Position numbers and translations under genes: made by a program
Part shown: positions 13,601 through 38,082 of the stretch, piece by piece
How the letters are laid out: every line of letters begins with the position of its first letter
Numbering within the stretch: position 1 is the stretch's first letter
NCBI GenBank assembly: GCA_964017185.1
Contig: OZ024879.1
Span: forward strand, 46,397,383 to 46,461,382
Direction: 5' to 3'
From: Rugalucina vietnamica
Lineage: Eukaryota > Mollusca > Bivalvia > Lucinida > Lucinidae
Length of the DNA stretch: 64,000 nt
Notes under the pieces: generated by a model
The model's input: the letters and a program-made list of their open reading frames with translations, nothing else
Databases searched by the model: none
What the model was told of the DNA's origin: nothing

Positions 13601-16600
13601 AATAAGCATTATGACATTTTTATGTTGATTGGTCATTTTAATTTGTATACTAAGTCACCATAAACTTCTGGTTCTAAGATGATACATTAATTTTTCAAGA
13701 TGTTTAAAGGCAGTTAACTCCGTAGTCAGCTGTAGGATCTGGTCAAATTTCAAGTTCATCCAAGATTGAATGGTTAATCACCAAGCATGCATTTGAAAGG
13801 GTATATGGTATATAATAAAAATAATTGGCAGAAAAATTAAATGAAGAAGGCCCAGATCAAGTGAGCATATATTGGCCATTGTTCCTCATGTTTCGTACAG
13901 TATTTAAATTTTAAATCAAAATTTTCGTAATGACATTTCAGGTCATTTATGGTAGACAAAGATTTCAAAGAAATCAACGCATTGCAAAGGGTATTTCCAA
14001 ACAGCCAAGTATTGCTGTGTTGGTTCCACGTTCTCCAGGTATTAAAGAAATTCAAATTACCTGCCTTAAGGTTTAAAGATTTATTTTAAATAAAGCATGC
14101 AGCAGCAATACATATTTTTTGAGTAAAATCCAAGCTTATAGTTACATAAGTGATTCACTGATGGGGGTTTGGTAACCAAAAAAATTAGGCATGGCCTCAG
14201 TGGCCTATTTGTACTTCTATAAAAGGAACTCATTTTTAACTTGTTTACTGTTACAGCTGTTGGTTTTGCCAAGTGATGACCATATAAATATCCTGACACA
14301 TCCATGTATCAGATCATATTTTGTCATCTGAATATATTTATAAAATATCCTCTTTTTGTACTCATTTTCTTATCTTATTGGTTGGGGTCCTCAATTCCCA
14401 CCAGGAATGCATAGACTGGTCGGTTAGATTTTAACACATACCAGTCAGAATGATGTCTGAACGCTTGCAGAGATCACAAATAACCAGTCCCTGATCATTG
14501 GGCTTCATGTTTAATGATTTTGTTAATCATACAGGCTACATATCGATGGATAACCAAGGTTGGCTCTGGTTTGACAGGAAATGACAAAGCTGAGCAGAGA
14601 CTTTCTGTAATTAAGTTCATGAGAAAGTTGAGAAGCTGTACATCAGTAAGTTTTTATAGCTACATAATTATGTCTGTCAGCCATACACCACATAATTAAC
14701 ATCCAAATTCTCTTTTAAGATTACCACTCTAGTACAGTCTTTTCATATGATGATATTAATAATATTTGAGAGAACTTCTTGTACTCAAAGGTAGGTCTAT
14801 TGTATATGTCTTGTTTAAAGTATTTACATAGTAAATATCATATGAAAAGGTACAAGTAGGCAACGATCAGGAAAAGGCGCAATCAGAAATAGTTTCCCAC
14901 TCCAAAACCCCAAGGCTGGAAAAAAACCCAAACTAACAACGAAACAATTTATGAAATATCTAGTAGAAAATCCACAAGTATACCTGTATTTACATATGTA
15001 ATATAACTACTGTAGGATGTGATTCACAAATAGCTTTGTTCTGATTATTTTGATGGACATTCTGTGACATCTGAAACAAATCAGCATACACAGACTACAC
15101 AGTACCAGGGTTAAAAATTGACAGTCTGGCAGCCTGATTTTATGCTGATTTGTGAATATTTTGCCCATTTTTGAAGTTATTTTCCCATTTCTAGCCATAT
15201 ATTTTAGGCTACCTGACATTTAGTTTTAGGAATATCAGTGTAAACTGTATGTTATTCTGTTCACTGAAATATAATATGTATGAATGAAGATATAGACATA
15301 GTCGCTTATTATTATGGATTTGTCTGTCTTTAAGTTTGCAAAAGAAAATGCTTAAGAACAGATAAAGGCGTCAAACGGGACACATTTTATTTGTAATGTT
15401 GTTACAGATAGAGAGTTTCGACCAAACAATGGAATCAGCTGCAGATGAGTTGCCAAATACTAAAGTGTTGTCGTATATATGTGACCAGTGGGTACCGGTT
15501 AAAGATAAATGGTGCTTGCTAGGACGTAGATTTTATCATGGAGACCATGACACAAACAACCTTGTTGAGAGGTTTGTATGCCTGTCTTAATTAGCTAATA
15601 GAAATCTACATCTTATGTTTTCCTTCATATACGGAAGTGAAAAGCTGAGAATCATCTGTCAGAAACAATAATATCCTTGTAGATATTAATTTCAGGCAAG
15701 AGCTCATGACAAGAGCCTCCTAGTGGTTTTATATTACTGATCCTTCCAGGGCGATACTTCTGATGTGTTTTTGGTTATTTTGTGTTTTGGAGTCTAATTT
15801 TTGTGCTGTTTGAGCCTTATGTACGTTTTAATGTTTTTAGTTCAGTTCCGGTAAATGAGTGGCCGCCTATGAGGGAATAGCTGCTCACTCGGCTTATGAC
15901 ATGTTTTCATGGTATAAGTGTCAATTGTCATTTTACTTTTTTCCCATCCCTCAGTTTGTGGAGTGGGAATGTCTTTCTGATTGGGCTACTTCCTGATCAT
16001 TGCCTATTGGTACTTTCCTATATACCTCTAAATTTCAGCGTGGATCCGCTGCAAGGAAGATCTGTAATCTGAATGACTGGAAATCTTGAATAGTTTCAGA
16101 GATATTTGAGCAGCTAATGTTTATCAAAAGAGTCAATTATGTATTCTTGCTGGTAGTGACACCTTGATTTTTATCAAGAGCAGAATGTCAGACTGGCAGA
16201 ACAATTCCAATTTGCAAGTAGCTCTTGATCAGTAAAATCATTTGCTCTTGTTTTATTTCATATGTGGTTCAATTAAGCTTACTGTTCTTAAATGATTCTG
16301 GCTCCGCATAGACACAATTATGTCTGTTACTGTTTTTCTGACAGAGATGTGGTTTTTCTAAGGACACAGCCATTTCTTGTAATAACAACCTGCTATACAA
16401 GCTGATAAGATCATTTAAAAGAGCTAAGTACCCCTGCTCCTTCTAAATTTTTATTCAAATAACAGATTAGTATCCCACATGTCTGATTAAAATTATCCAG
16501 TGATACAGCAGTTGCGGATCCGAGCTGAAATTTGAGGTGATAGCTCTCCCCTCATAAGCTACTTGATTTGTTTGTGTCTTAACAGGTTCTTTCTTTCTAT

Positions 16601-18891
16601 GAAGTACCACTTTTTGCGTGGATTAGCCAATAGAAGGGTAGACGACCTTCTGCAACTTCTAGATGACGATGTATCTTCAACCTTTGAGTATGTATATATC
16701 AAAATAAAATAAAACTGAGATCCTTTAAGAGCAGAGAACATATTAATGATATGGACCATGCCACGGTTTCAGCTACTTAAGCCTCTTTAGTGAAACTTAA
16801 GATTTGGCGAAATGGAGCTAAAAAGAAGTACAGTATTATGCAACTTTCAACAGGATAGTCGATTCAAAAACTAGTATTATCCAAACAGTGCCAAAATATA
16901 AATAGTTAGTTAGAAAATGAATCTAAACCAATCATAAACTTCTAATTTCTCAGAATACCCTCGCTGACCTCAAAGGATTAAAAAGAAAATATAATCTGCA
17001 CTATGGCTGATGTATGGGGAGACCTTTAATGCAGATCACATGATCAATGAAATTTGTTGAAAATTTTCACTAGTAATCTTTATTTAAAAAAATGCAATTT
17101 TTCACTTTTCGTCACAAAAAATTGCATTTGAATTTCCCACAAAGTAAAAAATTTGATATTTGTAATAAACAAAAATAACCAGACCAGAAATAACAAATTA
17201 AAATTGATAAAAAAAAAATTACACAAAAACAGGGCGGTACAAGATTTTTTATTTTCAGTATATATATTTACAGTTACATCGATGGCTTGATAAAGGCTGG
17301 TAGAATAAAGGGTGAAAGAATGAAAAGAGATGGCAAGAAACTGGCAGAAACGATGATGTCACAGGGTTGGGCGAATATCATTGTGTGGCACTCTGATGAT
17401 GTGTGTTATGTGCCTTCTCAGTCATCTCCACAGGAAAGTGGTTATCTTGTGGACATAATTCATGCAACATGTGAATGTCAAGCAGCATCTCAAGGAGGTA
17501 TGCCCTGTTGAGATTTAAAATAAATGCCTTTGTCTCATAAAATGTGCTATATTTTCTACTATGACCATATGGAACACGTATAGGGAATGTTATTTGTTGC
17601 TGAAACTCCTATATTTGACTTTATTATTGCAAGTACTTTATTAGCTCTCACAGAAATGCTTCATATGAAGCCTTGAAGCTTCTCTAGAGTGTATTGAAAT
17701 ATAGTCCATACTACCTCCCTTTGAATGTTTTTACTAAAGGATCAAACCTTTATATTTTATTTGCTATTACTGCAGCTAGTGTTGTGCCGTGTGGCGGCCG
17801 TAAAAAGTCTCCCCGTACATCATCCATAGTGCAGATTATATTTTTATTTCGGTCCTTTGAGATCAGTAAAGGTATTCAGAGTGTTCAAAACACTCACGTT
17901 TAGAAACATACTTCTAAACAATGTTGAAAAATATTTGACCCAATTTAGGAATATGTCTTTGATTTAGACTCCTCTTTTTAATTCTCGAAATTCCAGCACA
18001 ATAGTCTGGCGTTCGTTGCCGGTTTAAAAAGGGCTACTGATGAGGGTTCATTACCCGAAATTGCGCAATTTAGTCCATACTACCTCCCTTTCAATGTTTT
18101 TACTGCTTCCAAAGGATCAAACCTTTTTATTTTATTTGAAAGAATCACAGTAAATGCATTTTCTAGTTAATTACAAATTTTTTTAGGAGGTTAAATATCT
18201 TTGAATCAACATACTTTATTTTCTTCTGTATGCTTTTCCAGGAATGTGTAAACATCTCCACCTGGCATTGAATCTGTCAGCAGCAAGAGAGTATGATGTG
18301 CAGACAGTAAGATCAACAGTTGCTGAACAGTTATACACTTCAGGATCATGGACAGTTGATGGAAATTTTTTGACTGTTGTAGACAGAGAAATGGTTGGGG
18401 TGGTTAATTTGATGAATATGTCATGCATATGCGTGGCATCCAGTCATGGCCTGGAATGTGTTTGTAAAATGGTAGCTGAGCAATACAAAGATGCCAACAG
18501 TTTACAGTCTGGAAGCTTGGCGCCTTCTGTAGAATCTAATCTCTCTTTGCCAGATTTTTCAGAAAATGCACGGAAAGCCAAATTTACTCAGCTGTTAGGA
18601 GAAATTAGCCACTGGGCAGAAAACACAGATTCAATAGTAACTACCAGCATGATATCACATATAGAGAGGTTACATACTGGAATATTTGGACAGTACAGAA
18701 AAAGGTATACACAAAAGAAAATTCAGCCGTTACATCCATACAGAAGTATAATTGAAAAAGCAAAGAGAGATCACCAATACCATAAATTAAAAGGGAAAAA
18801 GCGTCTAGCAGTAAGAACCCCAAGAGAAGGTGGATCCTTTTGTATTAAAAAAAGAAAAGGACGGACAGGGTTCCTGAAAAAACTAGAGTAG
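3551..18891 (+). CDS. MULE-derived ZSWIM-like protein, 15 exons, 5' partial
   Basis: Exons: 3551-3673, 4548-4664, 5039-5132, 6812-6928, 7810-8038, 10372-10511, 11942-12028, 12897-13000, 13236-13407, 13942-14038, 14535-14645, 15408-15571, 16586-16687, 17274-17497 (or from 17259) and 18242-18891. All have GT-AG borders and phases that join into one frame of about 842 codons ending in TAG at 18889. Domain order is a duplicated N-terminal exon, a Cys/His cluster like FAR1/FLYWCH, a 'RRYYPTPNDI' block, an RNase-H-like MULE transposase core, and a SWIM finger. These features are typical of the animal ZSWIM1/3-like family, thought to be domesticated Mutator-like transposases acting as nuclear DNA-associated proteins. 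Fifteen exons and no terminal inverted repeats argue for a host gene rather than an active transposon. The start codon lies upstream or was not recognised. The exact orthologue is unknown. Confidence 0.85.
3895..4397. mobile_element. PIF/Harbinger-like MITE in intron
   Basis: Inverted termini of ~30 bp begin GGCCATTATTATTTTATTTT on the left and GGCCATTATTTTTTTATTTT on the right, with four to five mismatches. The element is flanked by TTA on both sides (3892-3894 and 4398-4400), the 3-bp TWA-type target used by PIF/Harbinger elements. It is 503 bp long, lies between the two duplicated exons and has no coding capacity. Confidence 0.8.
5159..5654. mobile_element. MITE flanked by TTAA
   Basis: TTAA occurs at 5155-5158 and 5655-5658. 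The ends are AGGAATAGG and CCTATTCCT, with weaker inverted similarity further in (ACTTACAAAC versus the complement of GTTGGTGAG). TTAA target duplications suggest a piggyBac-type nonautonomous element. It is about 496 bp long, in the intron after exon 3. Confidence 0.6.
5742..6706. mobile_element. AGCTCACCTGAGC-type nonautonomous element
   Basis: The sequence opens with AGCTCACCTGAGCCGTAAGG and closes with ATCTCAGGTGAGCG and GGACCATTGGTCC, the terminal arrangement of a very common marine invertebrate MITE family. Inside, a ~60-bp block containing CTTCTCCTCTGAAACCGCTT occurs at 5829-5890 and again at 6285-6345, so it is a head-to-tail double unit. Confidence 0.7.
6812..8038 (+). CDS. FAR1/FLYWCH-like zinc cluster exons
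   Basis: The two exons (6812-6928 and 7810-8038) encode NKCGNVQYKCERSRKSRRR, then NSCGAYVSFLLD, then VRSYFCHSGHDP. The spaced Cys residues followed by a C-H-x-G-H motif are the arrangement seen in FAR1/WRKY-GCM1-like DNA-binding zinc clusters that precede MULE cores. The basic stretch SRKSRRRSA lies inside the cluster. The role as a DNA-binding module is inferred from family organisation. Confidence 0.65.
6929..7809. other. Intron, nothing recognised
   Basis: This AT-rich intron runs between the exons encoding the two halves of the zinc cluster. Only simple A/T runs are seen. Confidence 0.5.
9005..9470. repeat. Degenerate CACCTGAGT-type repeats in intron
   Basis: Four related phrases (AACTCACCTGTATGAAAGT, CAACTCACCTGGGTAATC, GACCCACCTGAGTGGCC, GACCCACCTGAGTGACTT) recur every ~100-150 bp, each preceded by a GCTGTACCATCA-like phrase. 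They look like tandem remnants related to the element at 5742-6706. The rest of the 8039-10371 intron shows no recognised feature. Confidence 0.5.
10844..11790. mobile_element. Mariner-like terminus and decayed element in intron
   Basis: TA followed by CGAGGGGCATTCGGAAAGTT at 10842-10863 matches the typical start of mariner-type elements and the terminus at 63557. GAACGTTCGAACC and CGAACGTCCGAACC near 11725-11765 may mark the other end, but no clean inverted terminus is visible. Overlapping open frames on both strands at 11440-11778 show no transposase motifs. Confidence 0.4.
11820..11941. mobile_element. Element fragment abutting a splice acceptor
   Basis: AATCTCAGGTGAGCCATATC then AGGACCATTTGTCC repeats the terminal sequence at 6667-6700. 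It is followed immediately by TTTGCTTTGTTTTACAG and the exon at 11942. The element end therefore supplies or adjoins the pyrimidine tract of this exon's acceptor. Confidence 0.6.
12155..12305. repeat. Foldback element in intron
   Basis: The left arm contains GACAAGGAAATCTCAGAC and TTCAAGTCTCATCC. The right arm contains the complements GGATGAGACTTGAA and GAGATTTCCTTGTCTTGGC. The spacer between the inner arms is about 15 bp, so the ~150-bp unit forms an almost continuous imperfect hairpin. Confidence 0.75.
12897..15571 (+). CDS. MULE transposase-like catalytic core exons
   Basis: Exon 12897-13000 ends with VVFMDASYKG, matching the first catalytic Asp block of MULE cores. Exon 13942-14038 gives MVDKDFKEINAL and VLLCWFHVLQ, the second Asp block and the C-x-x-H block. 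Exon 15408-15571 gives WCLLGRRFYHGDHDTNNLVE, matching the N-N-x-x-E block with the third acidic residue. The triad therefore appears kept, which is unusual for a domesticated copy, but transposition activity cannot be inferred. Confidence 0.7.
14846..14945 (+). repeat. Dispersed repeat R1, fragment
   Basis: GGTACAAGTAGGCAACGATC, AGGAAAAGGCGCAATCAGAA and ACTAACAACG match the start of the longer R1 copies at 30187 and 61608. Confidence 0.75.
15721..16020 (-). repeat. Dispersed repeat R1, nearly full copy in intron
   Basis: This reverse-orientation copy contains GAGTGGGAATGTCTTTCTGA, CTTCCTGATCATTGCC and TATATTACTGATCCTTCC, the complement of the 30187 copy. It lies in the intron between 15571 and 16586. 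The family has no coding capacity and its class is unknown. Confidence 0.75.
16757..17060 (+). repeat. Dispersed repeat R3 copy in intron
   Basis: GTTTCAGCTACTTAAGCCTC, TTTGGCGAAATGGAGC, TTAGTTAGAAAATGA and AAAATATAATCTGCACTA recur in diverged form at 53150-53360, and the first part recurs inverted at 38083-38196. Confidence 0.6.
17274..18891 (+). CDS. SWIM zinc finger and second SWIM-like motif
   Basis: The splice between 17497 and 18242 joins ATCECQAASQGG to MCKHLHLALN, giving C-x-C-x8-C-x-H, the SWIM finger. About 50 residues later the same exon encodes SCICVASSHGLECVCKMVAE, which aligns as C-x-C-x8-C-x-C with the final His replaced by Cys. The 650-nt last exon continues into a Lys/Arg-rich tail (KKRLAVRTPREGG) that could serve as a nuclear localisation signal, then a stop at 18891. 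Confidence 0.75.
17498..18241. other. Last intron with two internal direct repeats
   Basis: AGTCCATACTACCTCCCTTT and AAAGGATCAAACCTTT occur at 17702-17755 and again at 18071-18125, with a third inverted copy at 22663-22709. A fragment at 17985-18070 is also a diverged inverted match to 35038-35140. Confidence 0.6.
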
Positions 18892-18991: not shown

Positions 18992-21465
18992 ATATTTTGC
19001 TTAGGAAAATAATTTTCATTGAAAAAATATTAAGCACATTCTTGTGTGTGTTTTTTTTCTATTGGCAAAAGAGCATGGGTTTTGTTTACAACATTTGAAT
19101 AAACAAACATCAGCCAGGTGCAGCAGTGACCACTATTATCGAGACTTTCTTATGTCCATGAAACTATGACGTCTGCAAAAATGTGAAGTCAGAGTATGAG
19201 CTACTAAATTCTGGAATTGCTGCAATTCCATGGTCAAACTCTTAACCTTTCTGACACAGTTACATATGCAGTACTTAAAAATGAAATGTAGTAATTCTTG
19301 TACTACACTCAGTAGAAGTCTGTTAACAAATTACAAATAAACAAAGTACAAATAAACAATATTAAGATCATTGGACTAGAAAAGATTATATATATATATA
19401 TATGCATCTGTGGCAAATATATGTTCTTTGTTGTGTATAACAATAAAAGCCATGGTGTTCATAGAATACACTTTGACAAAAGTTTAGCATATTCCAGTTT
19501 TAAAGTGCAAAAGTTAAATGCCCGCAAAATATTTCAAAAACAGATTTGCAATTCAAGGATTCAGAAAGTAAGCATGTCATAGCATGTCGTAGCAAAGAAC
19601 AAATAAAAAATTTGTCACAGATTTTTACAATTTATGTGTTACAATATGCATTATTTTGATAATAAGCCGTATTTCTAAAATCTGAATTCTGCACCTCATA
19701 TGACACGTCTGTACAAAATTCACACACAGATCAAGGAAGCGTATGTTGGAACAACCTGTTACATACAAAACATTGAGCTGAAAGTCAAACTCTGACATTT
19801 CTGGAAAGAACAAAAATTTATAGAATGTATAGCAAAATTGCAATGTTAAACATTTTGAAAATAAGTTTGCCGCTAAAGATGTCTAATGTCTACATCTCAA
19901 ATGACAGGATAATGATGTCTATACCACACTATTATTCTCTCTGTGGACTAAATATTTTACTAAGTTTCGTTTTATAATGTTGAATTTGAGTGCTTTTTAA
20001 GAAGGTTTTAAAAATGTGTTGAAAATCACACTTTCAAAACAGTAGTTTTTTCTTTTGTCATTCAGTATCTAAATAACTGCCGATTTTGAATCCAAAAAAA
20101 GCACTGGTTGTTTCCGCTGTAACCATGGCATCGAATAGGGGCGATTGCGTCAACATATTTATTCACTGACAGACGTGTTTCCTTCATCTTAGACGTTATG
20201 CTAAACTTTTGACAAAGAGTTTATTAGTCTAACTCACCGGTGGATACAGATACTATGTTGTTTAATCACTATTCACCTTGTTTTGCATTATCTACTGGTT
20301 CCCATCTAACTGAATTAAATATTGGAAATTATGTAAATCAAACCCTAAAGAATCTGTTTTAATTCTTATTAGATTATTGATTTTTTTCTAAGGGGGTTTT
20401 GGTTTCCTGTATTTGAAATATTTATAATGGGAATCAACAGATAATGCAAACACGATACGATGAAACCAGTTTGATCATGCTTGTTAACTTAACATGATTA
20501 GCTGTGTAAACAATAGAAAATGGGTATCTATGTGCCATAGGCATTTTCCGGTGCCATAGAGAACACATGCAACTCTTGTTAACCATTATGGAATCACAAT
20601 GTTGATTAAATACCCACTCGTAACATGTCCATTTCAAGGTAAACTGGCACAGTCAACCTAATGGCAATATACACAAGCTGTCTTCTGCACAACCACAATG
20701 ACAACCAGTTGTGGTCTTTGTGTCAAATCAATAAAGTTTTAAGTGTCTGTGGATTCATCACTACTAAGTTACACACAATCAAAATGACAAAAATGATATC
20801 AGTGGCTCGAATTTCATGTGAGAGAACAAATCAAAACTTTAAAAAAGAAAATGCTGACTAGCTTATTATTGACTAGATTTGTATTAAAAAAATGAGAACA
20901 TGATGAATATTCAGACTAGAATTGATCCACAAATTATCCTTCAAGATTATTGCTTGTATTGCAATATGTGCACATCAAAATTATATAAAAACTGAAAATG
21001 CTGACTAGCTTATTATCGACTAGATCTTTATTTTAAAAAGAAAAAGGAAGTTTCAGACTGTGATAAAATTCAGAATAGAATATTTCCTCATTTCTTTATC
21101 AGTATCTCACTTCAATCATCTGTTGGTTCCTTGTCTTTTACTTCTGCAACAGAAACCAAAGTTAGATTTACTACCAGATCAAATACTACATACAGTCATG
21201 TACCTTTTATTTTTATATGCGGAATGCAGTTATACATATTTTGGCACAAATAATTCTTTTTAGCATCTTGAATACAGTTGGTCCTTTTTTGCTTATTTTT
21301 TCTCTGCCATTAAATAACTTTGCAATGGCATATCATATTCAAAGGCACATGTGGCCCAAGCTGACATTGCCATAGAAAAGGTCAAGCTTGTCCAAGGGCC
21401 ATGTTTTATATTATAATTACATTATAGAGCTTGTGTCTGTAATGCTACATGCCAAGTTTGCAGAT
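18992..21465. other. Convergent intergenic region
   Basis: This AT-rich sequence lies between two converging genes. It holds a short TA microsatellite near 19388-19403. It also holds a ~35-bp duplicated phrase (AAAATGCTGACTAGCTTATT) near 20849 and 20993. No exon or RNA gene is recognised. Confidence 0.5.
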
Positions 21466-21471
21466 TATAGT

Positions 21472-21473
<2 letters not shown>

Positions 21474-21502
<29 letters not shown>

Positions 21503-21740
21503 GATTCAGTTTTACGTCCCTTTCAAGCATTTTCACTCATATCGAGACGAATCAATCTGTAGGTGGGGCGAAAACCGGAGTACCCGGGGAAAAACCACCT
21601 GACACACCCGCAAGCAGAACTTGGCTTGTCCCACATGTGACTCGTGCCCCGAGCGAGGCGCTAACCCACAGCGGTGAGATGATCGAATTATTAAGAGCAC
21701 TGAAGTCAGCGACCTTGACCACTAGGCCATGGGGGCCGCC
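21474..21740 (-). mobile_element. tRNA-derived Meta-domain-like SINE with 8-bp TSD
   Basis: Read on the minus strand, the element starts GGCGGCCCCCATGGCCTAGTG, a tRNA-Leu/Ser-like A box, and has a B-box-like TGTGGGTTAGCGCCTCG. It then carries the CCGGGTACTCCGGTTTTCGC core typical of Meta-type SINEs and ends in GACGTAAAACTGAATC and a poly-A tail, seen as the T run after 21474. TATAGTAA flanks it at 21466-21473 and 21741-21748, so this insertion is well defined. Confidence 0.88.
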
Positions 21741-21963: not shown

Positions 21964-24900
21964 TTATCCATTTCCTTTCTTACCCATTATTCCTTGCAAC
22001 CACTTTAAGGTGGTTTTCACGAATCCAAGCCCACCGTGGGTTGCCAGGTTAAGGTCGTTTGCCAAATCACCCTCAAGAGCCTTTGACACCAACTTCAGTG
22101 ATTGGCTACATACAAAACAAATAAAACATTTAATAAAAGTGATATAATAACATAGATAATGAGTACTTGGTGCACGTTCTGACCCATTGACTGGTATTTG
22201 CTCTTCTGAGTTAGCAGAGGAAATATGATACATACAAGGTATTTTGTCCTGTTGATAAAAAAGTGGGAATAAAAAGTTCAATCAACTGCTTTTGCTTTTA
22301 AAACACAAACATCTTTTATATAAATTTGATTACCAAGTTGTCTCTAGAGCAGCTTTCTTCTGTGACTCTGTTGCACAGATAGTACCATCCCAAATCTGGC
22401 TCTTGAGGGTCTTTTCGTTAACTTTAGAGGCCAGAAGCTGGCTATATTCTGTTACCATCTTGCTTACCTCATCTGAATCACAAAGTGAAAATGAATATAT
22501 ACTCTGCAATTTCAAGAAATTGAGTTTACAATAACGTTTTTGCTGGATCAGATGTTTTGAAATAATTATTGAAAGAGCATTACCACAGTTTATGAGCAAT
22601 CTGAACAATAATGAAATGCCACAATCATTTTTCTCTAAATTCTGTAAATAAAATATAAATGTTTGATCCTTTGGAAGCAGTAAAATATTCATAGTATGGA
22701 CTATATCAAACTGAATATGATATTGTTAAGTACAGATGTATTTTATACATGTTGTTTAGATATGAGACATTCAAATGCAAGAATGATGAGTATAACCAGA
22801 ATTATTCATCACCGACCAAAGAAATGCTTAAAAAGTAAATGATGCAATTCACTCGCGCAAACATTGTAACCATGACACAATTAAAATTGCCTATGCACAT
22901 GTACCCCTAACTCAAATAATTAATCATCTTGTACCACTAAGCAGTAACGTTGCAACTTCAACAAGTACTAAATTATCCCCCTTGCAATTAAACAAGTAGT
23001 GATTTTATTACTTTAATTATGAGCTTGTTTCTACTGCAATTTTCAAAAATTTTCAAGTATTGTTATGAGGTAGCAACTGTTATCTTTGTCTGAAAATTTA
23101 AATATAAAACTGTGAGCATTATTGTGATTTTTTCACTTGATAGCTCTAGTTTTGGTCGAAAAAATAACTCAATTCATTTTTTATCATACTCAAAATCAGT
23201 AATTTGCATTATGTACTCTGATATCAAATGGTCAGAGTTCAAATAGAGCCAAACTGTACAATGTTGCTGTTTGACCCTTAAAATGAGAAAGGTGGTTTTA
23301 TGTGGCTTTTCTTTTTTGTTCTGTTTATATCATTACACCTAAATATGTAAACTTATTACAATAGTGTTCCTAAATTTATTTTCTGCATAATGGATTTTGT
23401 GGCTTAGAAATAGGCTAAACTTATACAGGTACCAACCTTCTGTTAAAATACTGAAGGATGAAAGATTAGCAGAGCTAGTTCTTCTCTTTATGTTAAGGCG
23501 ACTCAAAAGCTCTTGAAGAGATTTTGCCTTCGAAGAGCCTTTGCCTATACGCAGCATCTGCTGTATGACAGATGCTGACATGGCCTCTGGTCCTTCAATC
23601 CGTCTAAGAAGTTCAGCCCCTGAGACTTGGCATAGCCGTTGGTATTTCACTGTGTTTGAAGGTGCAGGTGCTAGCCTGCTTGGTACCAAAGAGAAGTTAT
23701 CTGTAAAATATAAGCATAATCATGAATATGACTAAAGCACCATCAAAAATGGTGCTTACAAGCAGGAAACAGCCAATAGGAAAACAACTAATCAGACCAA
23801 AGCACCAAATTTTGTTCCATTTGTAAAACAAGTAACAATATGTTTCACCCATTACAATTTCACAATCTTGGGATGTAGGAAACAGTTTCTTTATAATAAA
23901 TACCTCAGTAATTGCTAAAAAGAATGAATTGAAATTATACACAGAAACATTGCAATAACATATAGCTGAACAATTCAGAAAAATAGCTTTTCTGGAACCT
24001 ATTCATTTAATCATTTTAATATGAGCATGCAACTTTGACATCAACGTCAGCCTGTGAGTAAATTTCATGAAAGTTGGTAAGCCGAAAATAATTTTCATAT
24101 ACAGACACAGTTTTAAAACTTTCACAACAGCCATCGTAATAGTTTTATTGCTGTTTTTGCATTATTAGTGAACAACTAAGATTATGCACACTGACTACTT
24201 TTGCATTAAATCACACATGATGTACATCAACAAATGATGACTTAACCCAGTGAAAGAGCAGTGCAAATTATTGTTTTAGAATGCAACATTTCAAACATCA
24301 AACCGAACAAGGATATGATATAAAAATGCGCTAGCCAGTCTTTGCGAAAACTGCTGGACAAAACCAGCAAAATTTTATTATGTCCAGCAGAAATTTTCAT
24401 TTTGTCAGACAAATGTATGGCAAAATTTACAAGATTACAATGTTAATATAAAGGCACTGTTGGGCAAAATAAGCTCTAGTCCAGCACAAAATTAAAATCT
24501 GTCAGACAGCTATCCAGCGGTAGAAAAAGATTTCAAAAGACTGACTAGCTTTACCTTAATTTATATTTTAAGCAGTTCTACCATAAATACTTATTGTTAT
24601 ATCATGGAAAGAAAATTGAATAAATCTTTTATCATATATTGGCCTCTTTTTTCCATTATTGTTACCTTTAGCCTGCAGGTCTTCTCTGGACTTTATTTTC
24701 GACCAGTCGAGTTCATTGTCCTAGAAGAGATTGTAAACTTATTTGGGACTAATAAATCAACACAGTGCATGCTTGTTTCATGTTCCTCTTTTAACCATTT
24801 TATTATTAGTTTTTGAATGCAAAAAGTAGATACATATACAGAGGATTAATACTATAAAATGGATATATGATGTGCATATATCATACTATATTAAACGTTC

Positions 24901-27900
24901 TTGATTATTTGCCACTGATACTGAGCATTTACATGTATGTGTAATATAAAGATCAGATCTTAATGAATGGCCCTCTTATGAATTACTTAAAATTACAATT
25001 GTTTAGACAATGTCACAAGAAAACCAACTCAGGATCTTACAACCAAAGGGGATTCAAATTTTAAAGAGGGATATTATTATGAGTGAAAACAAGTTGCAGA
25101 TTGTCTGTAAAGCTGATATGATCTAGTTTTTTTTTTTCAAATCACAGACAGTACTTCACAGGGAATAAAACTTCCAGCCTGTGACTTATCTTACCTTGTT
25201 TCTGTCTTGTGTCGTTTCCCTCGAGTCTAAAAGAAAGGAGAAAAAAATATAAAAATAATCTTAGGCTAAAACACTCTATAAAAGATCTTTGTTTTTATAG
25301 ATTGTTTTAATCATTGGATTATTTTTTGTTTATTGTTATCTGAGTGATCATAAATTATTATTGCTTCTATCTTTCTGCCCATTAAATCATATATTGATTT
25401 TTTTCTGTTGTTGATATTTCACCATTACGATATTCATCATAACATCAGGAAAACATGTCCGTGCAATGAACAACTCCTTGAACCCCTTGTTTTATATAGC
25501 AAAACGGGTATGCAGGGGTATACATATTTTCTTATTTTTGGCCCCAAAACATAGATTGTGGGTACTCTTTGAACCGCCTCGCCGAGGCAGTTGTAACATG
25601 TACCCACAATCTATGTTTTGAGCAAAAATCAAAAATGTCAAAATTTTTCCAGGGAAATTTTTCATTTTTAGAACCAAATTTTTTGCTGTATATTGCATGG
25701 CTAAAGCAAACGGATCTTAATAGGATCATCATCAATCATACTTTTGCAAGAAACTACCTTGCTTGGGAATGTATAGGTTCCATAATAATAGTTTTAAGCC
25801 CGCCAGTAATTTTATATTACTGATTGTTCCAAGGCGATACTTCTGTCGTGGTTCTTTAGTTTTATGTCTTGGTGTTTAAAATGTTTGTGCTGCTGGCGCA
25901 TTATGTATGTTTTCATATTTTTAGTTAAGGTAACTGAGTAGCCACCTATTCGGAAAATAGCTGCCCATTCGGCTTACAATATGTCTTCATGGTATAAGTA
26001 CATGATTGTTAATTTAGTTTTTTCCCATCTTGGTTTTTGGAGTGGGAATATTTTTTCTGATTGCGCCTTTTCCTGATCTTTGCCTACTTGTACTTGAATA
26101 TGAAAAGCCAGCTTTAACACAAACAAGATACATGATAAATTACCCTGTGCTCCTAATATTCTTGAAATGAGGCCCTATGGGACCGAAATGGGGCCCCATA
26201 CACAATATCAAAAAATATCTTACATTCCAAATTGCTGGCTAAGAATATGCAATTAGAAAATTTCTCCATAAAAATAGTTTTCTTGGATTTGAAAGGTGAA
26301 AAAAAAAGTCAAACGTTGTGAAACATAATATTTCTCTAGTTTGTAATGTTTTCCGGAAAGTCTTTCTGTATATCTCAGGCTATAAACATGATTGGACTAC
26401 TGTTTATAAATCTATTTTATTTATTCAATTTTGTTATGACAGTACATACCATTCTGGTATTTTCTTTTTTGTCCTTTTTTCTGTGGTCGTTCAATCTGTA
26501 TTTTTTCCTCCTCTTCCTCTGACTGTTTTCTTTTCTCTGCCTCTGTTTTTCTTCTTTTCACTTCTGCCTTCTTTCTTTCATCTTCAGTCTTTCTTTTCCC
26601 CCCTTCTGTCATTTTTCTTTTCTCTTCAGCCTTTCTTCTTTCCTCCTCTTCTGCCCGTTTTTCTCCCTCTTCAGTCTTTATTCTTTTTTCATCTTCTTCT
26701 GCCTTTCTTTTTTCCTCTTCTTCAGCATTGCTCCATTCAACCTCTTCAGCACTATTTCTTTCCTCATATTCAGCCTTTATTGTTTCTTCTGCCTTACTTC
26801 TTTCTTCCTGTTTGGCCTTTCTTCTTCCTTCTTCAGCCTTTCTTCTTTCTTCTGTCTTTCTTCTTTCTTCTTCAACCTTTCTACATTCCACATGTTTAGC
26901 GTTTCTTCTTTTTTCTTCAGCATTACTTCTTTCTTCTTCAGCTTTTTTTCTGTCTTCTTCAGCCTTTCTTTGTTCAACCTCATCAGCCTTTCTTTCTGTT
27001 TTACCCTTTTTTCTTTCTTCTTCAGTCGTTCTTTGTACTACATCTGCCTTTTTTCTTTCTTCTCCTGCCTTTCTTCTTTCTTCTTTAGCCGTTATTACTT
27101 CTTCATCCCTCCTTTCTTCTTCAGCATTACTTCTTTCTTCTTCTTCAGCTTTTTTTCTTTCTTCTTTAGCCTTTATTTGTTCAACCTCATCAGTCTTTCT
27201 TTCTGTTTCACCTTTTTTTCTTTCTTCTTCAGTCTTTCTTTGTACTTCATCTTTAGCTTTTTTTACTTCTTCAGCCTTTCTTTTTTCTTCTTCAGCTTTT
27301 CTTCTCCTTTCCTCAGTTTTTCTTATTTCTTCTTCAGCAGTCTTTATTTCTATATCATCCTTTTTTCTTTCTTCAGCCTTTCTTTGTTCTACATCTGCCT
27401 TTTTTCTTTCTTCTCCAGCATTTCTTCTTTCTTCTCCAGCATTTCTTCTTTCTTCTTCACCTTTTTTTCTGTCTTCAGCCTTTCTTTGTTCAACCTCATC
27501 AGTCTTTCTTTCTGTTTCACCCTTTTGTCTTTCTTCTTCAGTCTTTCTTTGTACTACTTCTGCTTTTTTTCTTTCTTCTCCTGCCTTTCTTCTTTCTTCT
27601 TCAGCCTTTATTACTTCTTCATCCTTCCTTTCTTCTTTAGCATTAGTTTTTTTTTTTCTTCTTCAGCTTTTTTTCTTTCTTCTTTAGCCTTTCTTTGTTC
27701 AACCTCATCAGTCTTTCTTTCTGTTTCACCCTTTTTTCTTTCTTCTTCAGTCTTTCTTTGTACTTCATCTTTTGCCTTTTTTCTTTCTTCTCCTGCCTTT
27801 AGTCTTTCTTCTTCAGCCTTTATTACTCCTTCATTCTTTCTTTTTTCTTCTTCAGCCTTTCTTCTTTTTTCCTCATTTTTTCTTCTTTCTTCTTCAGCCT

Positions 27901-28314
27901 TTTTTAGTTTCACCTCTTCAACATTTCTTCTATCTATTTCAGCTTGTCTTCCTTCTTCATCATTTTGTCTTTTTTCTTCAGCCTTTCTTCGCCTAGCCTC
28001 CTTTTTTCTTTCTTCTTCAGCCTTTCTTCTTGCTACCTCTTCAGCCTTTTTTTCTTTTTCAACATTCCTTTCTGCTTCTTCAGCCTTTATTTTTGCTTCA
28101 CCTTCAGCCTTTCTTAGATCTACCTCTTCAGACTTTCTTCTTACTTCTTTTTCAGCCTTTCCTTTTTCTTCTTCTGTCTTTCTTGTTTCTTTTTTCTGTC
28201 CACATCTTTCTTTTTCAACCTTTCTTTTTTCTTCTTCGCCCTTTCTACTTTCTGCTTCAGACTTCCTGCTTTGCACCTCTTCAGCCTTTCTTCTGCTTAC
28301 TCTAGTTTTTCTGA
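21964..28314 (-). CDS. AP-2-like C-terminal domain protein with long charged helix
   Basis: Six minus-strand exons: 28314-26450, 25226-25195, 24720-24666, 23700-23437, 22472-22334 and 22105-21964. Phases agree at every junction and the stop is TAA at 21964-21966. The last three exons align with the DNA-binding and helix-span-helix region of TFAP2 proteins. DNFSLVPSRLAPAPSNTVKY matches the 'VPGRLSLLSSTSKYK' block, SLQELLSRLNIKRR the 'SLREKLDKIGLNLPAGRR' block, ILTEGDEVSKMVTEY the 'LVEGEAVHLARDF' block, and LNLATHGGLGFVKT the 'FNLISHGFGSPAV' block. A TFAP2 protein would bind DNA as a dimer in the nucleus. This one is divergent and lacks the usual PY-rich N-terminus, carrying ~620 residues of charged helix instead. 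The true start exon was not found. One homopolymer frameshift at 27648-27658 needs resolving. Confidence 0.75.
22663..22709 (-). repeat. Inverted third copy of a last-intron repeat
   Basis: This is the reverse complement of the phrase TACTGCTTCCAAAGGATCAA found at 18098-18120, extending to GATATAGTCCATACTA. It lies in an intron of the AP-2-like gene. Confidence 0.65.
24330..24549. mobile_element. 220-bp MITE in AP-2-like gene intron
   Basis: The ends are GCTAGCCAGTCTTTGCGAAA and, inverted, GCTAGTCAGTCTTTTGAAAT. CTGCTGGA and CCGCTGGA are the next inverted block. GTCCAGCA occurs in both halves. Confidence 0.65.
25485..25740. repeat. Palindromic repeat R2, copy 1
   Basis: CAAAACATAGATTGTGGGTA and TACCCACAATCTATGTTTTG form a near-perfect hairpin around GAACCGCCTCGCCGAGGC. 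Flanking GGGTATGCAGGGGTATAC and the AAATTTTTCCAGGG stretch also recur near the copies at 49318 and 51532. Confidence 0.7.
25795..26096 (-). repeat. Dispersed repeat R1, nearly full copy
   Basis: CCGCCAGTAATTTTATATTA, TTCCAAGGCGATACTTCTG and GATTGCGCCTTTTCCTGATC are the complement of the R1 copy at 30187. It lies between AP-2-like exons. Confidence 0.8.
26450..28314 (-). CDS. Single-alpha-helix/coiled-coil exon of the AP-2-like gene
   Basis: This 1.87-kb exon starts after TTTACTGTTTTCAG and ends at a GTATGT donor. It encodes almost only Glu, Lys, Arg and Ala in AEEERRKAEE-type heptad-like steps, the composition of stable single alpha helices. A longer unit (KGETERKTDEVEQRKA) recurs four times, at about 26968, 27182, 27491 and 27701 in plus coordinates, spaced ~210-310 bp, showing internal amplification. 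The frame breaks once at an 11-base A run. After a one-base adjustment it stays open to the donor. Confidence 0.7.
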
Positions 28315-29025: not shown

Positions 29026-32000
29026 TTAATCCAAAATTACAAAATCATAACCTTCTGTGACCGTAGGTAAGTTTGTGTCTGATCTTATCATTACACCAAC
29101 TGGTTTTCTCTCGCCCCAGCTGATTTTAGTAACACCTTCATAATCTGATATTCCAAGGCAATGCATTGTACAGGCACATAAAATGTCTTTCAAAAGAACA
29201 AATACTGCAGCTTGATTACCTGGTGTTGTCTCGTATTGCTCCAACACCCTTTTAACCTCCAGCCTCATGTTTCTTCCATCTTCCCTGTTGAACCATTTCG
29301 TCAGGTACAACGGGCGGTTCCAATTTGTAATGGGCTTCTAAATACATGTATAAGAATGAAATATTACTTTGAAATCAGTCAAGGTAAGTAAGGCATGGTA
29401 AATCAAGACTAGCATTTGCAGTCACATCTACAGTTATTAACTTTCATAAAAACGTTTTTTATAGAAACAGCGCCCGAGTTTTGCCACAGGGAGATTACAA
29501 ATCCTCTTCTTTATAATCTCTTACTATCTCTTGCCATACGTTTTGACTGTATAGCTCTGTTTGTGTCCGTATTGCTCTCTAGGTTATAACACGTTTTTCA
29601 TGTTCAATTTAACTGAGCTTTTGCTATTGCATTATATATTACAGAATTAGTTCACAAAATTATTTATGGGCTCAGATATTCCATGTCAATATCATTTTTT
29701 AAACCCAGAATAATATAACATATGCATAACCATAAAAGTATGGCTATTACAGTATCTGATTTTTTAAGGTAGTTTTATTTAAATAGTTCCATACCTTAAA
29801 CATGCAGTCCAAATACTTAAGGACAAAACTGCCACAGTCATTTGAGCTAGGTCCTTGCTGTGGCATCTGTGCGTGAATTGCCGGAAGATTGTTGTTACCG
29901 AACACTTTTATGTCATCGTATTGTTTTTCATATTCTTTAGTTAGATATCTGAAATAAATGTAACCTCAAAATGTTGTGTAAAGAAACATGGTATAATATA
30001 GCATTGCTATTGTTTCATTGACATAAGGACATATTAAAATATGACTAAGACATCCTCGAAAGAATGGTCTTTCAAAGGAAATATTTTACCCATGGATACA
30101 TCATGGAGGCGGCAGTCATAAATGAAAAAAAAAAATAGGAGGAAATGACTGTCAATTCGGCTCATTGCCAAGAACTCATATCTAAAAAGGTACAAGTAGG
30201 CAAAGATCAGGAAAAGGCGCAATCAGAAAAAGATTCCCACTCCAAAAACCGAGGTGGGGAAAAAACCAAACTAACAATCAGGTACTTATACCATGAAACA
30301 TATCGTAAGCCGAATGAGCAGCTATTTTCCCAATAGGTGGCCACTCAGTTACCTTAACTTAACTGAAAATATGAAAACACACATAAGGCGCCAACAGCAC
30401 AAAAATTTTATACACCAAGACATAAAACAAAAAGAACCACCACAGAAGTATCGACTTGGAACGATCAGTAACACAAAGTTACTGGCGGGTTTAAACCGGT
30501 TTTACATGGCCATAACCTCACCCTCAGCTTCTGCAGTGGTTCATAACATTTAGTTAGTTATTTGGTCCTCGTGGTGAATCTCTAACTAGTCAATGAATCA
30601 TCAAGAACAAACAAATAAATCATGATAAACATCCTGATGAATCAAAAACCAGGACTCACAGACTGGGTAAGCTGCCCGACGATGGAGATCCCTGGGCGCC
30701 GAATAACCTACTAACTCCGGAGCAAAAGAAAAAACACCAGTTGGACCCCGGTGGGCCAAGCAACAGACAAGAAGCTCCGGCCCCAACCAACTAAAATGAA
30801 TAGCTTTATGTCGGGGCCATCATAGAGTCTGACGCCCGACCCACCGGCGTGCAATTAAAGAAGGCAGCACTTTATGCACTTTAAACAGAAAAAAAGTGTT
30901 TCAAATAAACTTTGAAAATAGACCAAAGGCATTTTTGTAACTCAAAGACAAGCCATTGTGGTGCTACTTGTTTGACATTGCTAGGCAAGCTGGATCTGAT
31001 ATGCACATGCCCTCTTATGCATCAGTAAATTCTAATTATGTAACTCTGAAACTACACTGAAGAACTTTCAAGAGGCACAAAACGAAAATTAGTATTTTTG
31101 CAACAAGGACATTTTAGTCTTCCTTAACAGGTCCAAGGGGTCGGTAACTGTACTTTATTTAAGATGAAATAGGCGTTTGTTATGTCACTGACCACCCCAC
31201 AGCAATAAAAACATTTTGCACTTTTTGCCATGTGGCGTCTCGTTGAATAAGAAACATATTTTATCATTTCACTCGGAATTTGTAGTAATCCATATATGAA
31301 ACACTTAAGTTTTGTCTCATTTTTAACCACTCTACAGTTCTTTAAAATAAAGTAGAAAAGCAACTGGCATAATTTGCTTTTTCATGTGACGTCATATTTG
31401 CCATTTTAAAACTATACGGCACTGCAGAAGTCCCTCCAAGGGTTTTGGGATGGTGAAAGTTTGACGCCGTCTGATCAACGTTGCTTTTCTTGTCAAGTCG
31501 CTAATATCTCTAGAGATTCGCCGTAAAGACGCAATATATAAAGTCGATTACGTCGACGATGAACAATCAGACAAGCTAGCATCATTGCCTGTCAATCAGT
31601 GCAACCTTCCGCTTTTAATAAGATAACAATGCTCTTTATGCCAAGGGGCAAATTGTAGTCGTGCTCACTATTACTTGCAGTTTTGGATTTTAGGGTATTA
31701 CTATAACCAGGACTGTTGATCTCATATTACTCATTATATTGTGAGGAAATTCACAACTTAGTTTGCAAACATATCAATGTTTGTGTGTCTCAAATTTCAA
31801 TAGAATAGAAGTATTGTAAATATGAAAACAATTTAAATAAACAAAAATGTTTGCGTTTTTAAAGCTCTTCAGTGTATAATAAACCTTTTTACCTACCCTT
31901 GAGGGAAAATAACTAAGCCTAAGGGCGAATTCTGCAAAGCTGTATGAATCCAGAATTTAATTATTACCACCCACCCCACCCCTTATCCCCAATCTGCCAA

Positions 32001-32616
32001 GAAAAAACACATTTTCACAGAAGAGAAAGTAACTATGAAACAATATGTAAATTTTTTTGGTCTGTCCTGGTTTCCAGCAAGCATAAAATGATCGTACATA
32101 AAACAGATAAATCATAGCTAAGAAAATTTGTTGGCACAATTTAATTTGCCATTATAATTCTATGAGATTTTTAGAAAAACTCAAGGGCAGCTAACTCTGT
32201 ATTGAATGTGTGGATCTGACTTAATTTCAAACTCATCCAAGATTTTATAACTGCATTCATTACCACGAAGAAAATGTTATCATTGAAACCAGAGTTCCGC
32301 TCTTATCTGTCTTAAAGAATCAAATCAAACATATTTTGGCCAATATACAGATTTGAAATATCTGATATTTCTTCAATCATATTTTGGTACATAGCAGATG
32401 CTGGGTCCAAGTCTATGTACTGAATTCAGAGTACAATCCCACATGCATTATGACTAAGTGTCTTAATTTAAAAAATATTGACACCAATGAAAATGACTGG
32501 TATGGCAGAATGTAATGGAAAGTTACCTTTTGGAGACAAATTTGTTGCCCTCACGAATACTGTGCTCTGGAAAATCCATGAGAGGATAGCAAATCACTAA
32601 CAAAATCCAGTGGCTC
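29026..32616 (-). CDS. Ulp1/SENP6-7-like cysteine protease, 3 exons, partial
   Basis: Minus-strand exons: 32616-32527, 29948-29795 and 29337-29026 (stop TAA at 29026). The first encodes SHWILLVICYP, the Ulp1 (C48 peptidase) His block. The second encodes AQMPQQGPSSNDCGSFVLKY, carrying the oxyanion Gln and the nucleophilic Cys of D-C-G. The third continues KPITNWNRPLYLTKWF, like the region after the active-site Cys in SENP6/7. C48 enzymes cleave SUMO or related modifiers. The segment with the catalytic Asp (usually D-S) falls between the first two exons and was not found, although their phases allow direct joining. The N-terminal part lies further right and was not found. The ~60 C-terminal residues (LGISDYEGVTKISWGERKP) match no family I know. 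Confidence 0.72.
30187..30850 (+). repeat. Dispersed repeat R1, longest copy
   Basis: The first ~340 bases (GGTACAAGTAGGCAAAGATC through TAACCTCACCCTCAGC) define the R1 family, found on both strands of the window. The following ~320 bases (to CCGACATAAAGC-complement at 30810) are not in the other copies, so they may be the rest of the parent element or an adjoining one. A 61-codon open frame within it has no known motif. It lies inside a protease-gene intron. Confidence 0.7.
31960..32260. repeat. Dispersed fragment shared with 13700-13800
   Basis: AAGGGCAGCTAACTCTGTAT, GGATCTGACTTAATTTCAAA and CTCATCCAAGATTTTATAAC resemble AAAGGCAGTTAACTCCGTAG, GGATCTGGTCAAATTTCAAG and TTCATCCAAGATTGAATGG in an intron of the ZSWIM-like gene. 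The element class is unknown. Confidence 0.45.
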
Positions 32617-33219
32617 CTACAATATAAACAGACATTTGTTAACAGTTCAATTTCAAGACGTTCTCAAACATAATGAGATAGTGGAGCGTGCAGGTATGTC
32701 ATTGTTTATAACAGGATAGCTAAAGTGTGAATATCGTTAGCTTTACAAAAGACATCAATGAGCAGGTGAGAACAACTGTTTCTCAAATAAAAAACTGTAG
32801 CAGACTCCATATGTTAAGTTCGTTCAGACAACTTGTGCTTTCCGGATACGAGTTGTTAAACGCTACAATGTGTACCATAAGGATTTCAAAAAATTGTTTT
32901 TATAAAACAAAATCAATCTTTAATCATACATTTGCACCAACTAATTTCTGAAAGACTTGTCTTTTTGTAAATGGTTAATATCAGCCTGTAGATGTCTGAC
33001 TATGTAAAAATCCATGTTAGGAAATGTGGATGTGGAAACTATATAATTTTTTTACATCATGCAAATGTGTTCATTGTTGAGGACAATATTCTATGGCATT
33101 AAGATGGTCCCTCTGACCACACTGGCAGCCATGAAAATTGGTTTCAAGGATACAAGATAGATCTTATAACCCATCCAAAACTTGCAATGGCTTTAGTTAA
33201 TCTCCGTTTTTCTTTAATT

Positions 33220-33450
33220 TTCTATATTTTATTAGTATTCATGAATATGCAAATGAGATAATTTTCATTTAGGCACATGACATCAATACATTTGTCATAT
33301 GCTATTACTGGTTAAATTACAAAGTGCCACAATTATAGTTTCGACCTCAAATTAGTTTATTTATTGACTTTTCATGATTTTTATGTCATTTTTTTTTTAA
33401 TATTTTCATTAAAATTCATGAATATGCAAATTAAATATCTTGTATATCTT
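33220..33450. repeat. Twin ATTCATGAATATGCAAAT blocks
   Basis: ATTCATGAATATGCAAAT occurs twice ~175 bp apart, each after an ATATTTTATTAG/ATATTTTCATTA-like run and each followed by an A/T-rich stretch. This suggests an old tandem duplication. Each contains the octamer ATGCAAAT, but no function is implied. Confidence 0.45.
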
Positions 33451-33856
33451 ACCATATGATGAAAGGGCAATGTCAAAGCTTTAAAATGTGACCAAGTTCA
33501 GTGGTAATGAATTTTGTATGCACACATCCATGCTCCATTTTTTAAATGACCTAAATTAATTTTCAAATGTTCAAATGTGAAAAAATACCGCTGATTTTGA
33601 GAATCTTCCGAAACCCAAATAAAACTGAATCATTCCATATTTTGGACAAAGGAAGTGCGGTTTGTTGGATACAAAGACAATGTTGAAATTTGCAGACAGT
33701 TTGAACCGAAAAGACAAAGGCATAAATGTACAGGTTATTATGCTGAAAGTTTCTTTTTTACTGGCTTAACGTATATTTTGTTCTCTTGTTTTTTACTAGA
33801 AAAATCAGCTTTTTGATGAATGTTCAATTATTTCCTTAATGTAATAACAGGGTAAT

Positions 33857-34902: not shown

Positions 34903-35200
34903 AAAAATACCCTATATATTACTTGATGTAACGTGTGTTTGATAAACAGACATATTTGACATATATTTGTTGAAATTGTATAAACTATAAAAGTTTGATA
35001 TTTGGAAGAAGCAAAAACGTTCAAATGCAGGTAGTATTGGCCGTATTGTGCAATTTTGGGTACTGAATCCTCATCAGTGACCCTTTATAAAGTCTGAAGA
35101 CTCTCTGGCTATATTGGAATTGCTGTGTTGCTCTGTGTTATACAATGAAACTCATAAAATCAAAGCATATAAGAAATAAGTATCCTTTCCTCGAAATATT

Positions 35201-35624
35201 GTCCCTGATGTAACGATTTCTGTCCCTGATGTAACACTTTTCACCGTTACATCACGGACCGTTACATCAGGGACATATTTTAGATAAATCACCTGCAAAT
35301 TGCTTCCAATATACTTGTGTGTTCATTGTTATGGTGAAATGTTTACACAACCACTAAACACGTTTTATGAATAGTACCTACATATTGTCTCTTGAAACAA
35401 ATAACCAGTAGAGGCTGTTACATCAGGGAACTATTACAAATATACTCACTCACCTGAAAGTTGTAATTATTATTTTTTCAGATCTACTCTATAGATGTGT
35501 CATCATGGCAGTCAGCCATATTTAATTTCAATGTAGCCCTTCAAAATGTAGATAGATGTTCCACCTTTACCAAGGGGAGTCACTTTGTACTTGGTATTTT
35601 TAGATAAATTGTTACATCAGGGAC
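35201..35624. repeat. Array of GTTACATCAGGGAC motifs, both orientations
   Basis: The complement GTCCCTGATGTAAC lies at 35201-35214 and 35222-35235. The forward form lies at 35246-35259 (one mismatch), 35261-35274, 35417-35430 and 35611-35624. The dense inner cluster at 35201-35274 is itself an inverted repeat. Confidence 0.8.
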
Positions 35625-37860: not shown

Positions 37861-37881
37861 TGTAACACGCCTTGTAGTCAT

Positions 37882-38072: not shown

Positions 38073-38082
38073 TCTCCGTTTC

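Follow-up and report, generated by a model that had tools for sequence, protein, structure and literature searches.

Background

According to PMC5735166, the VANC protein of plant VANDAL Mutator-like transposons (MULEs) recognises a short motif that its own element carries, always in the same orientation, in non-coding tandem repeats, and it causes DNA methylation to be lost. A captured Ulp1 domain is present in some VANC genes, known as Kaonashi/KIU (PMC13317346 and PMC6117577). The transposon-encoded anti-silencing proteins in the available text of this cited work come from plants (PMC5735166, PMC13317346). The survey PMC8277862 describes MULEs as rare in animals; none of the 100 reference genomes of animals that it covered had a Pack-MULE, and it reports one Pack-MULE type, borne by FB4, from fly populations. 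Here, a stretch of 64,000 nucleotides from the bivalve Rugalucina vietnamica (assembly GCA_964017185.1, contig OZ024879.1, positions 46,397,383 to 46,461,382 of the forward strand; the window) is described. The locus is assigned to a MULE DNA transposon of about 50 kb, the second gene of which ends in an AP-2-like DNA-binding domain. It is nearly certain that this MULE carries, in its sister copies, a gene with the predicted order PHD finger, SENP-like protease, charged helix and AP-2-like domain.

The element resembles the ZSWIM/SWIM-type MULEs, as grouped by Dupeyron et al. 2019 (PMC6446971), in having a 9-bp target site duplication (TSD), terminal inverted repeats (TIRs), a MULE core and, as judged by eye, a CxC...CxH motif. 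It differs from those groups in its length of 50-58 kb and in its second gene. Table 1 of that paper, as available, lists minisatellites for Rehavkus and aphid Phantom, and no AP-2 or Ulp1 accessory for any MULE group. In the available text of PMC3212892, Ulp1 is described in Cryptons and AP-2 appears merely as the partner of a host protein. Among literature titles, no AP-2 domain in a transposon and no such architecture was found, a weak negative with subscription papers mostly outside the search. MULEs with captured genes are already known; the PHD-SENP-helix-AP-2 accessory is apparently unreported.

With VANDAL VANC/Kaonashi, as presented in the accessible parts of PMC5735166 and PMC13317346, the element shares a second MULE gene with an Ulp1-family domain, short motifs of one orientation in non-coding arrays and peptide repeats in a variable part of the protein. 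Unlike that system, it has an AP-2-like DNA-binding part, a SENP6/7-like protease, an added PHD finger and an animal host, and it is known here from sequence alone. General Pfam scans of the gene parts gave no VANC-type family, no direct comparison with VANC having been made. The resemblance proposed is one of layout, and the element gene is not classed as a member.

The element and its transposase gene

The limits of the element in the window are as follows.

1 to 47246: MULE portion in the window; a further 2738 bp lie to the left of the window, where the element starts (C11:46394645), and the ends of near-identity with the C4 and C9 copies are inverted repeats
47205 to 47246, minus strand: right TIR, 42 bp, 33/42 identical to the left repeat (which starts at L042:7263)
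47247 to 47255: 9-bp TSD TAAAAATAG, the second copy of which stands immediately before the left terminus

Three copies were found: the window copy on C11 measures 50.0 kb, that on C4 53.6 kb and that on C9 58.4 kb. The window covers the whole C11 element save its first 2738 bp. When 10-kb pieces were compared, aligned blocks of the three copies were mostly 97-99.7% identical across tens of kb, with lower identity where tandem repeats align out of register. The alignments end within a few bases of common points, i.e. at the inverted repeats. A duplicated 9-mer flanks 3/3 copies and differs between them, being AGGTTACAG in C4 and TAAAATCGG in C9 (by eye). A terminus pattern allowing up to 3 mismatches gave 6 matches in the 1.09-Gb genome, which are both ends of the three elements, and the control gave 0. 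At the DNA level, exon 4 of the second gene with its flanks has 7 matches in the genome: three at 99-100% identity (C11:46.42, C4:47.77 and C9:22.70 Mb) and the remaining four at 78-83%. A segmental duplication was rejected as explanation, the ends of similarity being inverted repeats flanked by different 9-bp duplications.

The transposase gene is read from the plus strand.

12931 to 13000 (start provisional), plus strand: 3' portion of a MULE transposase exon, in which VVFMDASYK probably supplies the first catalytic Asp, motif by eye
13236 to 13407, plus strand: MULE transposase exon, catalytic core, with a Pfam match when joined to the next exon
13942 to 14038, plus strand: MULE transposase exon (VDKD...LLCWFHVLQ), donor alternatives 14038 or 14070
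15366 to 15587, plus strand: probable further transposase exon, an open frame alone, without Pfam match
17194 to 17497, plus strand: open frame of the transposase, the end of which holds the first half of a SWIM-like CxC...CxH, motif by eye
18242 to 18888, plus strand: C-terminal transposase exon, within a 228-aa open frame

When 13236-13407 and 13942-14070 were spliced, the MULE profile PF10551 scored 46.2 bits (cut-off 27.6) and the ZSWIM1-3 RNaseH-like profile PF21056 43.7 bits; on one transposase exon alone, PF10551 scored 28.0 bits. The Pfam SWIM profile gave no match up to E 0.5, and the CxC...CxH motif in the C-terminal transposase exons was judged by eye. The C-terminal exon is 100% identical over 214 aa in the three copies and 42% identical in a relative on C13. 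A KDZ/Zisupton-type transposon, suggested by an Ulp1 exon and the subterminal repeats, was set aside because the MULE domain matched. The transposase and the AP-2-like gene are convergent (tail-to-tail) and lie between the subterminal arrays.

The second gene

A preliminary description of this locus had reported an AP-2-like domain joined to a long charged helix. The two do fall into one gene model, which is the 3' half of a longer, transposon-borne gene. Its parts in the window are listed here in the direction of transcription; splicing was predicted from the DNA letters only.

33024 to 36003: stretch without C4 or C9 match (>88% identity, 200 bp); in C4, the corresponding interval contains the PHD exon and three exons of the N-terminal protease part
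32527 to 32616, minus strand: Ulp1/SENP exon with the catalytic His (SHWILLVICYP)
32049 to 32052, minus strand: site of the lost catalytic-Asp exon (PCILLMDP), about 510 bp in C4 and C9 that are absent from the window
29795 to 29948, minus strand: Ulp1/SENP exon with the catalytic Gln/Cys (MPQQGPSSNDCGSF)
29220 to 29337, minus strand: exon after the protease core (KPITNWN...YETTP), splicing in phase to 28314
26450 to 28314, minus strand: charged helix exon, 1865 nt, frame interrupted within 27614-27662 in the window copy
25195 to 25226, minus strand: short exon SRETTQDRNK
24666 to 24720, minus strand: short exon DNELDWSKIKSREDLQAK
23437 to 23700, minus strand: AP-2-like exon 1 (exon 4 of the six first described), TF_AP-2 profile positions about 3-84
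22334 to 22472, minus strand: AP-2-like exon 2, its boundary introns matching host TFAP2
21984 to 22105, minus strand: AP-2-like exon 3 (LNLATHGGLGF), alternatively reading through to a stop at 21964
21112 to 21143, minus strand: possible last exon, EVKDKEPTDD and a stop, in phase, based on splice sites only

The six minus-strand exons first described (28314-26450, 25226-25195, 24720-24666, 23700-23437, 22472-22334 and 22105-21964, with the stop) are indeed flanked by GT and AG. They do not all join in phase: read from its 5' end, the helix exon of the window copy meets a stop at 27613, another frame fits the next exon, and the two open frames overlap at 27614-27662. The Glu/Lys/Arg/Ala block of about 620 residues is real, the frame being open over 1695 nt in C4 (564 residues) and 1860 nt in C9 (619 residues), but it is interrupted in the window copy. 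Nor is the helix the N-terminus, as had been thought, with in-phase exons lying upstream at 29337-29220, 29948-29795 and 32616-32527. Exon 29337-29220, which is mostly within the SENP7 alignment, ends in the phase needed by exon 28314 in all three copies.

Reading C4 by hand gave four more exons upstream, three of the protease and one, with a start codon, of the PHD finger; the exons are in phase, and one intron of the gene model has a GC donor. The PHD exon is also found on C9 (98% identical). The C4 prediction scores 79.8 bits with Peptidase_C48 (PF02902) and 28.8 bits with PHD (cut-off 24). Compared with solved structures, the C4 protease is closest to SENP7 (E 1.8e-34; chains 3eay and 7r2e, both at about 2e-34), and it contains the His, Asp, Gln and Cys blocks, of which the window copy lacks the Asp exon. 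The second gene of the sister copies is thus predicted to encode a PHD finger, a SENP6/7-like SUMO protease, a charged helix and an AP-2-like domain. The N-terminal PHD and the C-terminal helix with AP-2 domain, together with the loss of the Asp exon in the window copy, set the element protease apart from SENP6/7. Partial relatives of the element's protease exon (90%) and PHD exon (98%) are seen at C11:7658141-7658293 and C11:7682263-7684532.

The helix of C9 contains 182 Glu, 120 Lys, 96 Arg and 54 Ala in 619 residues, with two prolines, a single Met and 8% hydrophobic residues other than Ala. Pairs of opposite charge are enriched, both from E/D to K/R (i+3, z 9.6; i+4, z 4.9) and from K/R to E/D (i+3, z 6.2; i+4, z 10.6). 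From this composition we infer that a charged single helix is favoured over a coiled coil.

The AP-2-like domain

The TFAP2-like C-terminus of the preliminary description is borne out by the profile search. When exons 4-6 were spliced, positions 3-145 of the 197 in the Pfam TF_AP-2 profile were matched with 46.5 bits (E 5.2e-12), against a gathering cut-off of 23.4 bits, and exon 4 alone (23438-23689) reached 29.2 bits in the genome scan. The Pfam match covers residues 4-145 of 180, and most of the third AP-2-like exon falls beyond it; this exon is alignable to host TFAP2. With phmmer, solved chains of TFAP2A (8j0k, E 3e-5) and TFAP2B (8j0q, E 7.6e-5) were retrieved.

The host has a canonical TFAP2 gene elsewhere (C5:54.37-54.38 Mb), with 92 identities to human TFAP2A among the 99 residues compared. 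The domain of the element is identical to host TFAP2 at 50/168 aligned residues. Both introns within its AP-2 region (2/2) have the same position and phase as in host TFAP2: the first, in phase 1, follows LTE/LVE, and the second, in phase 2, precedes the Gln of QSLKL/QILKEL; because of these, the AP-2 part shares its gene structure with TFAP2. Intron 1 of host TFAP2 has no counterpart in the element (1/3 host introns absent). On this comparison, the domain is assigned as a homologue of metazoan TFAP2 with a common gene structure. Its capture from a host TFAP2 gene would be the simpler direction, the reverse transfer being possible too.

Unlike TFAP2, the C-terminus in the element is shortened by about 19 residues, and the domain is transposon-borne and fused to a protease and a helix. 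The upstream exons encode the charged helix, protease and PHD, and no PY activation domain is present in the gene model. As a PY-rich activation domain is absent, the product is classed as a relative of the TFAP2 DNA-binding domain and not as a TFAP2 factor.

The first AP-2-like exon of C4 is 100% identical over 88 residues (protein scan). For selection, the AP-2 exon was compared with four older, decayed relics at C11:7.2-8.9 Mb, which share with the element the AP-2 exon and adjoining intron, scattered repeats and the stretch at 5.1-6.7 kb of the window, and which served solely for this test. The ratio of nonsynonymous to synonymous divergence (dN/dS) was 0.12 (relic L045), 0.18, 0.20 and 0.25, at a dS of 0.64-0.79 (0.68 for the comparison giving 0.12). 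The relics carry one to three stop codons each, which were omitted from the counts. These ratios indicate that the AP-2 exon evolved under constraint, i.e. purifying selection.

Subterminal arrays

Tandem arrays lie inside both ends of the element.

423 to 3352, plus strand: left subterminal tandem array, unit of about 50 bp, 40 exact copies of ATGCCYTGTAGTCAT
36360 to 46390, plus strand: right subterminal tandem arrays, with breaks, unit of about 56 bp, 42 exact copies of ATGCCYTGTAGTCAT

In the window, exact matches to the 15-mer ATGCCYTGTAGTCAT number 82 and share the plus strand, against 0 in 100 shuffles; none lies in the element core and none in the window outside the element. Across the 1.09-Gb genome it occurs exactly 231 times (reversed control 0), and 229/231 occurrences are within the three elements. 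Of these, 228 were counted directly (86 in C11, 78 in C4, 64 in C9) and the 229th, in the C9 element, spans the boundary of two sequence pieces; the two outside are at C3:80.38 and C7:43.61 Mb. In the left array the motif is an imperfect dyad, ATATGCC-CTGTA-GTCATAT (6/7 pairs). The array motif, ATGCC-YTGTA-GTCAT, is related to a string of the TIR, ATGAC-N5-GTCCA. Positional conservation in the arrays was excluded as evidence since anchoring on the motif biases the result.

Related loci in the genome

AP-2-like exons stand tail-to-tail with MULE transposases in three lineages: the window family, one on C13 and one on C3 and C11 (35.4 Mb). In the C13 relative, the AP-2-like exon is 52% identical and lies 3 kb from the transposase mentioned above. 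A 38-39-bp tandem array of its own (C13:7809500-7816117) precedes the AP-2-like exon, with a perfect dyad at a 5-bp spacer, ATGGAC-CAGTA-GTCCAT.

The second AP-2-like family is found at C3:44451301-44454432 and C11:35375693-35378824 (96% identical over the query exon) and in five more C11 places (E 7.6e-11 to 0.031). Its C3:44.45/C11:35.38-Mb members score 65.7 bits with TF_AP-2, above the gene in the window. These two best copies are 92% identical over 2.3 kb, and a MULE transposase lies 4.5 and 14.8 kb away, tail-to-tail. A scan of the genome for the MULE domain gave 59 places in 1.09 Gb, and none of them is within 15 kb of the other five C11 places. This says little, because the scan also missed the intron-split domain of the window element.

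Four places have MULE and C48 (Ulp1) domains within about 2 kb (C8:51233555-51235777, C11:34598509-34600908, C5:24534702-24536990 and C5:68064990-68067143). In two of these, the open-frame length is equal for both domains (1652 and 1757 aa), so the pair is apparently in one frame. The four are regarded as a MULE-Ulp1 association separate from the window element.

Proposed function and alternatives

SUMO supports transposon silencing in animals, and SENP6/7 prefer poly-SUMO chains. As the element has a VANC/Kaonashi-like layout made from other parts, a self-targeting factor acting on SUMO at its own arrays is proposed. Dimers of the AP-2-like domain would attach to the subterminal arrays. The helix, with few hydrophobic residues other than Ala, would be an extended charged spacer of the single-helix type. 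The PHD finger could read neighbouring histone tails, and the SENP-like domain could remove SUMO from proteins that act in silencing or repair at the element. The net outcome might be local anti-silencing and/or licensing of transposition, as proposed for VANC/Kaonashi in plant VANDAL MULEs. The anatomy combined with a self-targeting role of the gene product as an element factor is the reading we lean towards. Anti-silencing in particular is a tentative assignment, put at less than an even chance. It is doubtful whether the wider picture holds, in which an animal MULE lineage evolved a sequence-specific anti-silencing machine from a captured TFAP2 DNA-binding domain, one branch adding a SENP7-type protease and PHD, with arrays co-evolving and SUMO-dependent silencing removed, convergent with VANC/Kaonashi.

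Several results weigh against the self-targeting factor or parts of it. Neither array contains a single copy of the canonical AP-2 site GCCN3GGC, which TFAP2 binds as a dimer (GCCNNNGGC), and a changed specificity would be needed for binding there. The TIR string is not a good dyad at 5-bp spacing, and its relation to the array motif is what is expected if the transposase, not the AP-2-like protein, binds the TIR. The gene copy in the window is broken, with 5' exons missing, the catalytic-Asp exon deleted and the helix frame interrupted. AP-2-like exon 1 is 263 nt in C9 versus 264 nt, and the C13 exon has one stop inside the match. A fold model of the 87-aa AP-2 exon was poor (predicted local distance difference test score, pLDDT, 63.5; predicted template modelling score, pTM, 0.31). 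No C48 match lies beside the AP-2/MULE loci of C13 or C3/C11:35.4 Mb in a scan that also missed the exon-split protease of the element itself; the protease is therefore probably not general.

The main rival to self-targeting anti-silencing is an accessory factor of transposition, in which the AP-2-like domain binds the arrays to synapse or present the ends and the SUMO protease serves to maintain transposase or repair factors in an active state, with no anti-silencing. The relation between array motif and TIR string, the convergent gene pair in three lineages and the unusual length of the element all fit it. However, binding of the ends needs neither a SENP-like nor a PHD module, and the right arrays cover about 10 kb, mostly far from the element end; this explanation is considered unlikely. 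A division into two genes, a PHD-SENP protease and an independent helix/AP-2 gene downstream, would be in line with the other MULE families here in which AP-2-like exons are found and no protease was detected. Against it, in each of the three copies the phase of 29337-29220 fits exon 28314. No Met is present in the open frame that runs into the helix (28486-28315), and the C9 helix has a single one; translation is therefore unlikely to begin at the helix, barring another 5' exon. Two separate genes are thus improbable.

Passive capture, in which the element took up pieces of the host's TFAP2, SENP7 and PHD genes in Pack-MULE style and these merely hitch-hike, is decidedly improbable. MULEs do capture host DNA, the shared introns mark the AP-2 part as a genomic relative of a TFAP2-type gene, and the window copy is decayed. 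On the other hand, the selection test, at its lowest dN/dS, largely contradicts this for the AP-2 part, long frames are open in two sister copies, and AP-2-like exons accompany MULE transposases in three lineages. The preliminary description had suggested as possible a lineage-specific AP-2 derivative with a rigid spacer, which would act as a host transcription factor. Both the AP-2 homology and the charged helix are real, but they belong to a gene within a TIR/TSD-bounded transposon with 3 near-identical copies, the frame is interrupted in the window, and protease exons stand in phase upstream, with PHD and SENP7-like domains in the sister copies. A host AP-2 paralogue was accordingly rejected, the gene being inside a transposon present in three copies, and a host factor of this kind is scarcely credible.

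A 50-kb animal MULE with a constrained AP-2 domain, a predicted SUMO protease and near-private arrays makes the co-evolution of element and silencing directly testable. The TFAP2 fold travels with transposons, which calls for caution when multi-copy 'AP-2' genes of such genomes are annotated.

Other repeats

The stretch 5155-6716 is similar to repeats elsewhere, at three loci that contain AP-2-like exons (L005, L015, L023) and at one next to such an exon (L046). A dispersed repeat of about 250-300 bp is found at 25793-26093, 30184-30450 and 61603-61935, and in many other genome pieces compared; two of these copies sit in introns of the AP-2-like gene. At 21471-21740, a short dispersed repeat with a poly-A/T run, also present in the C4 region, is probably a tRNA-derived short interspersed element (by eye). 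Outside the element, 54680-54822 holds a 71-bp unit twice, with 98% matches.

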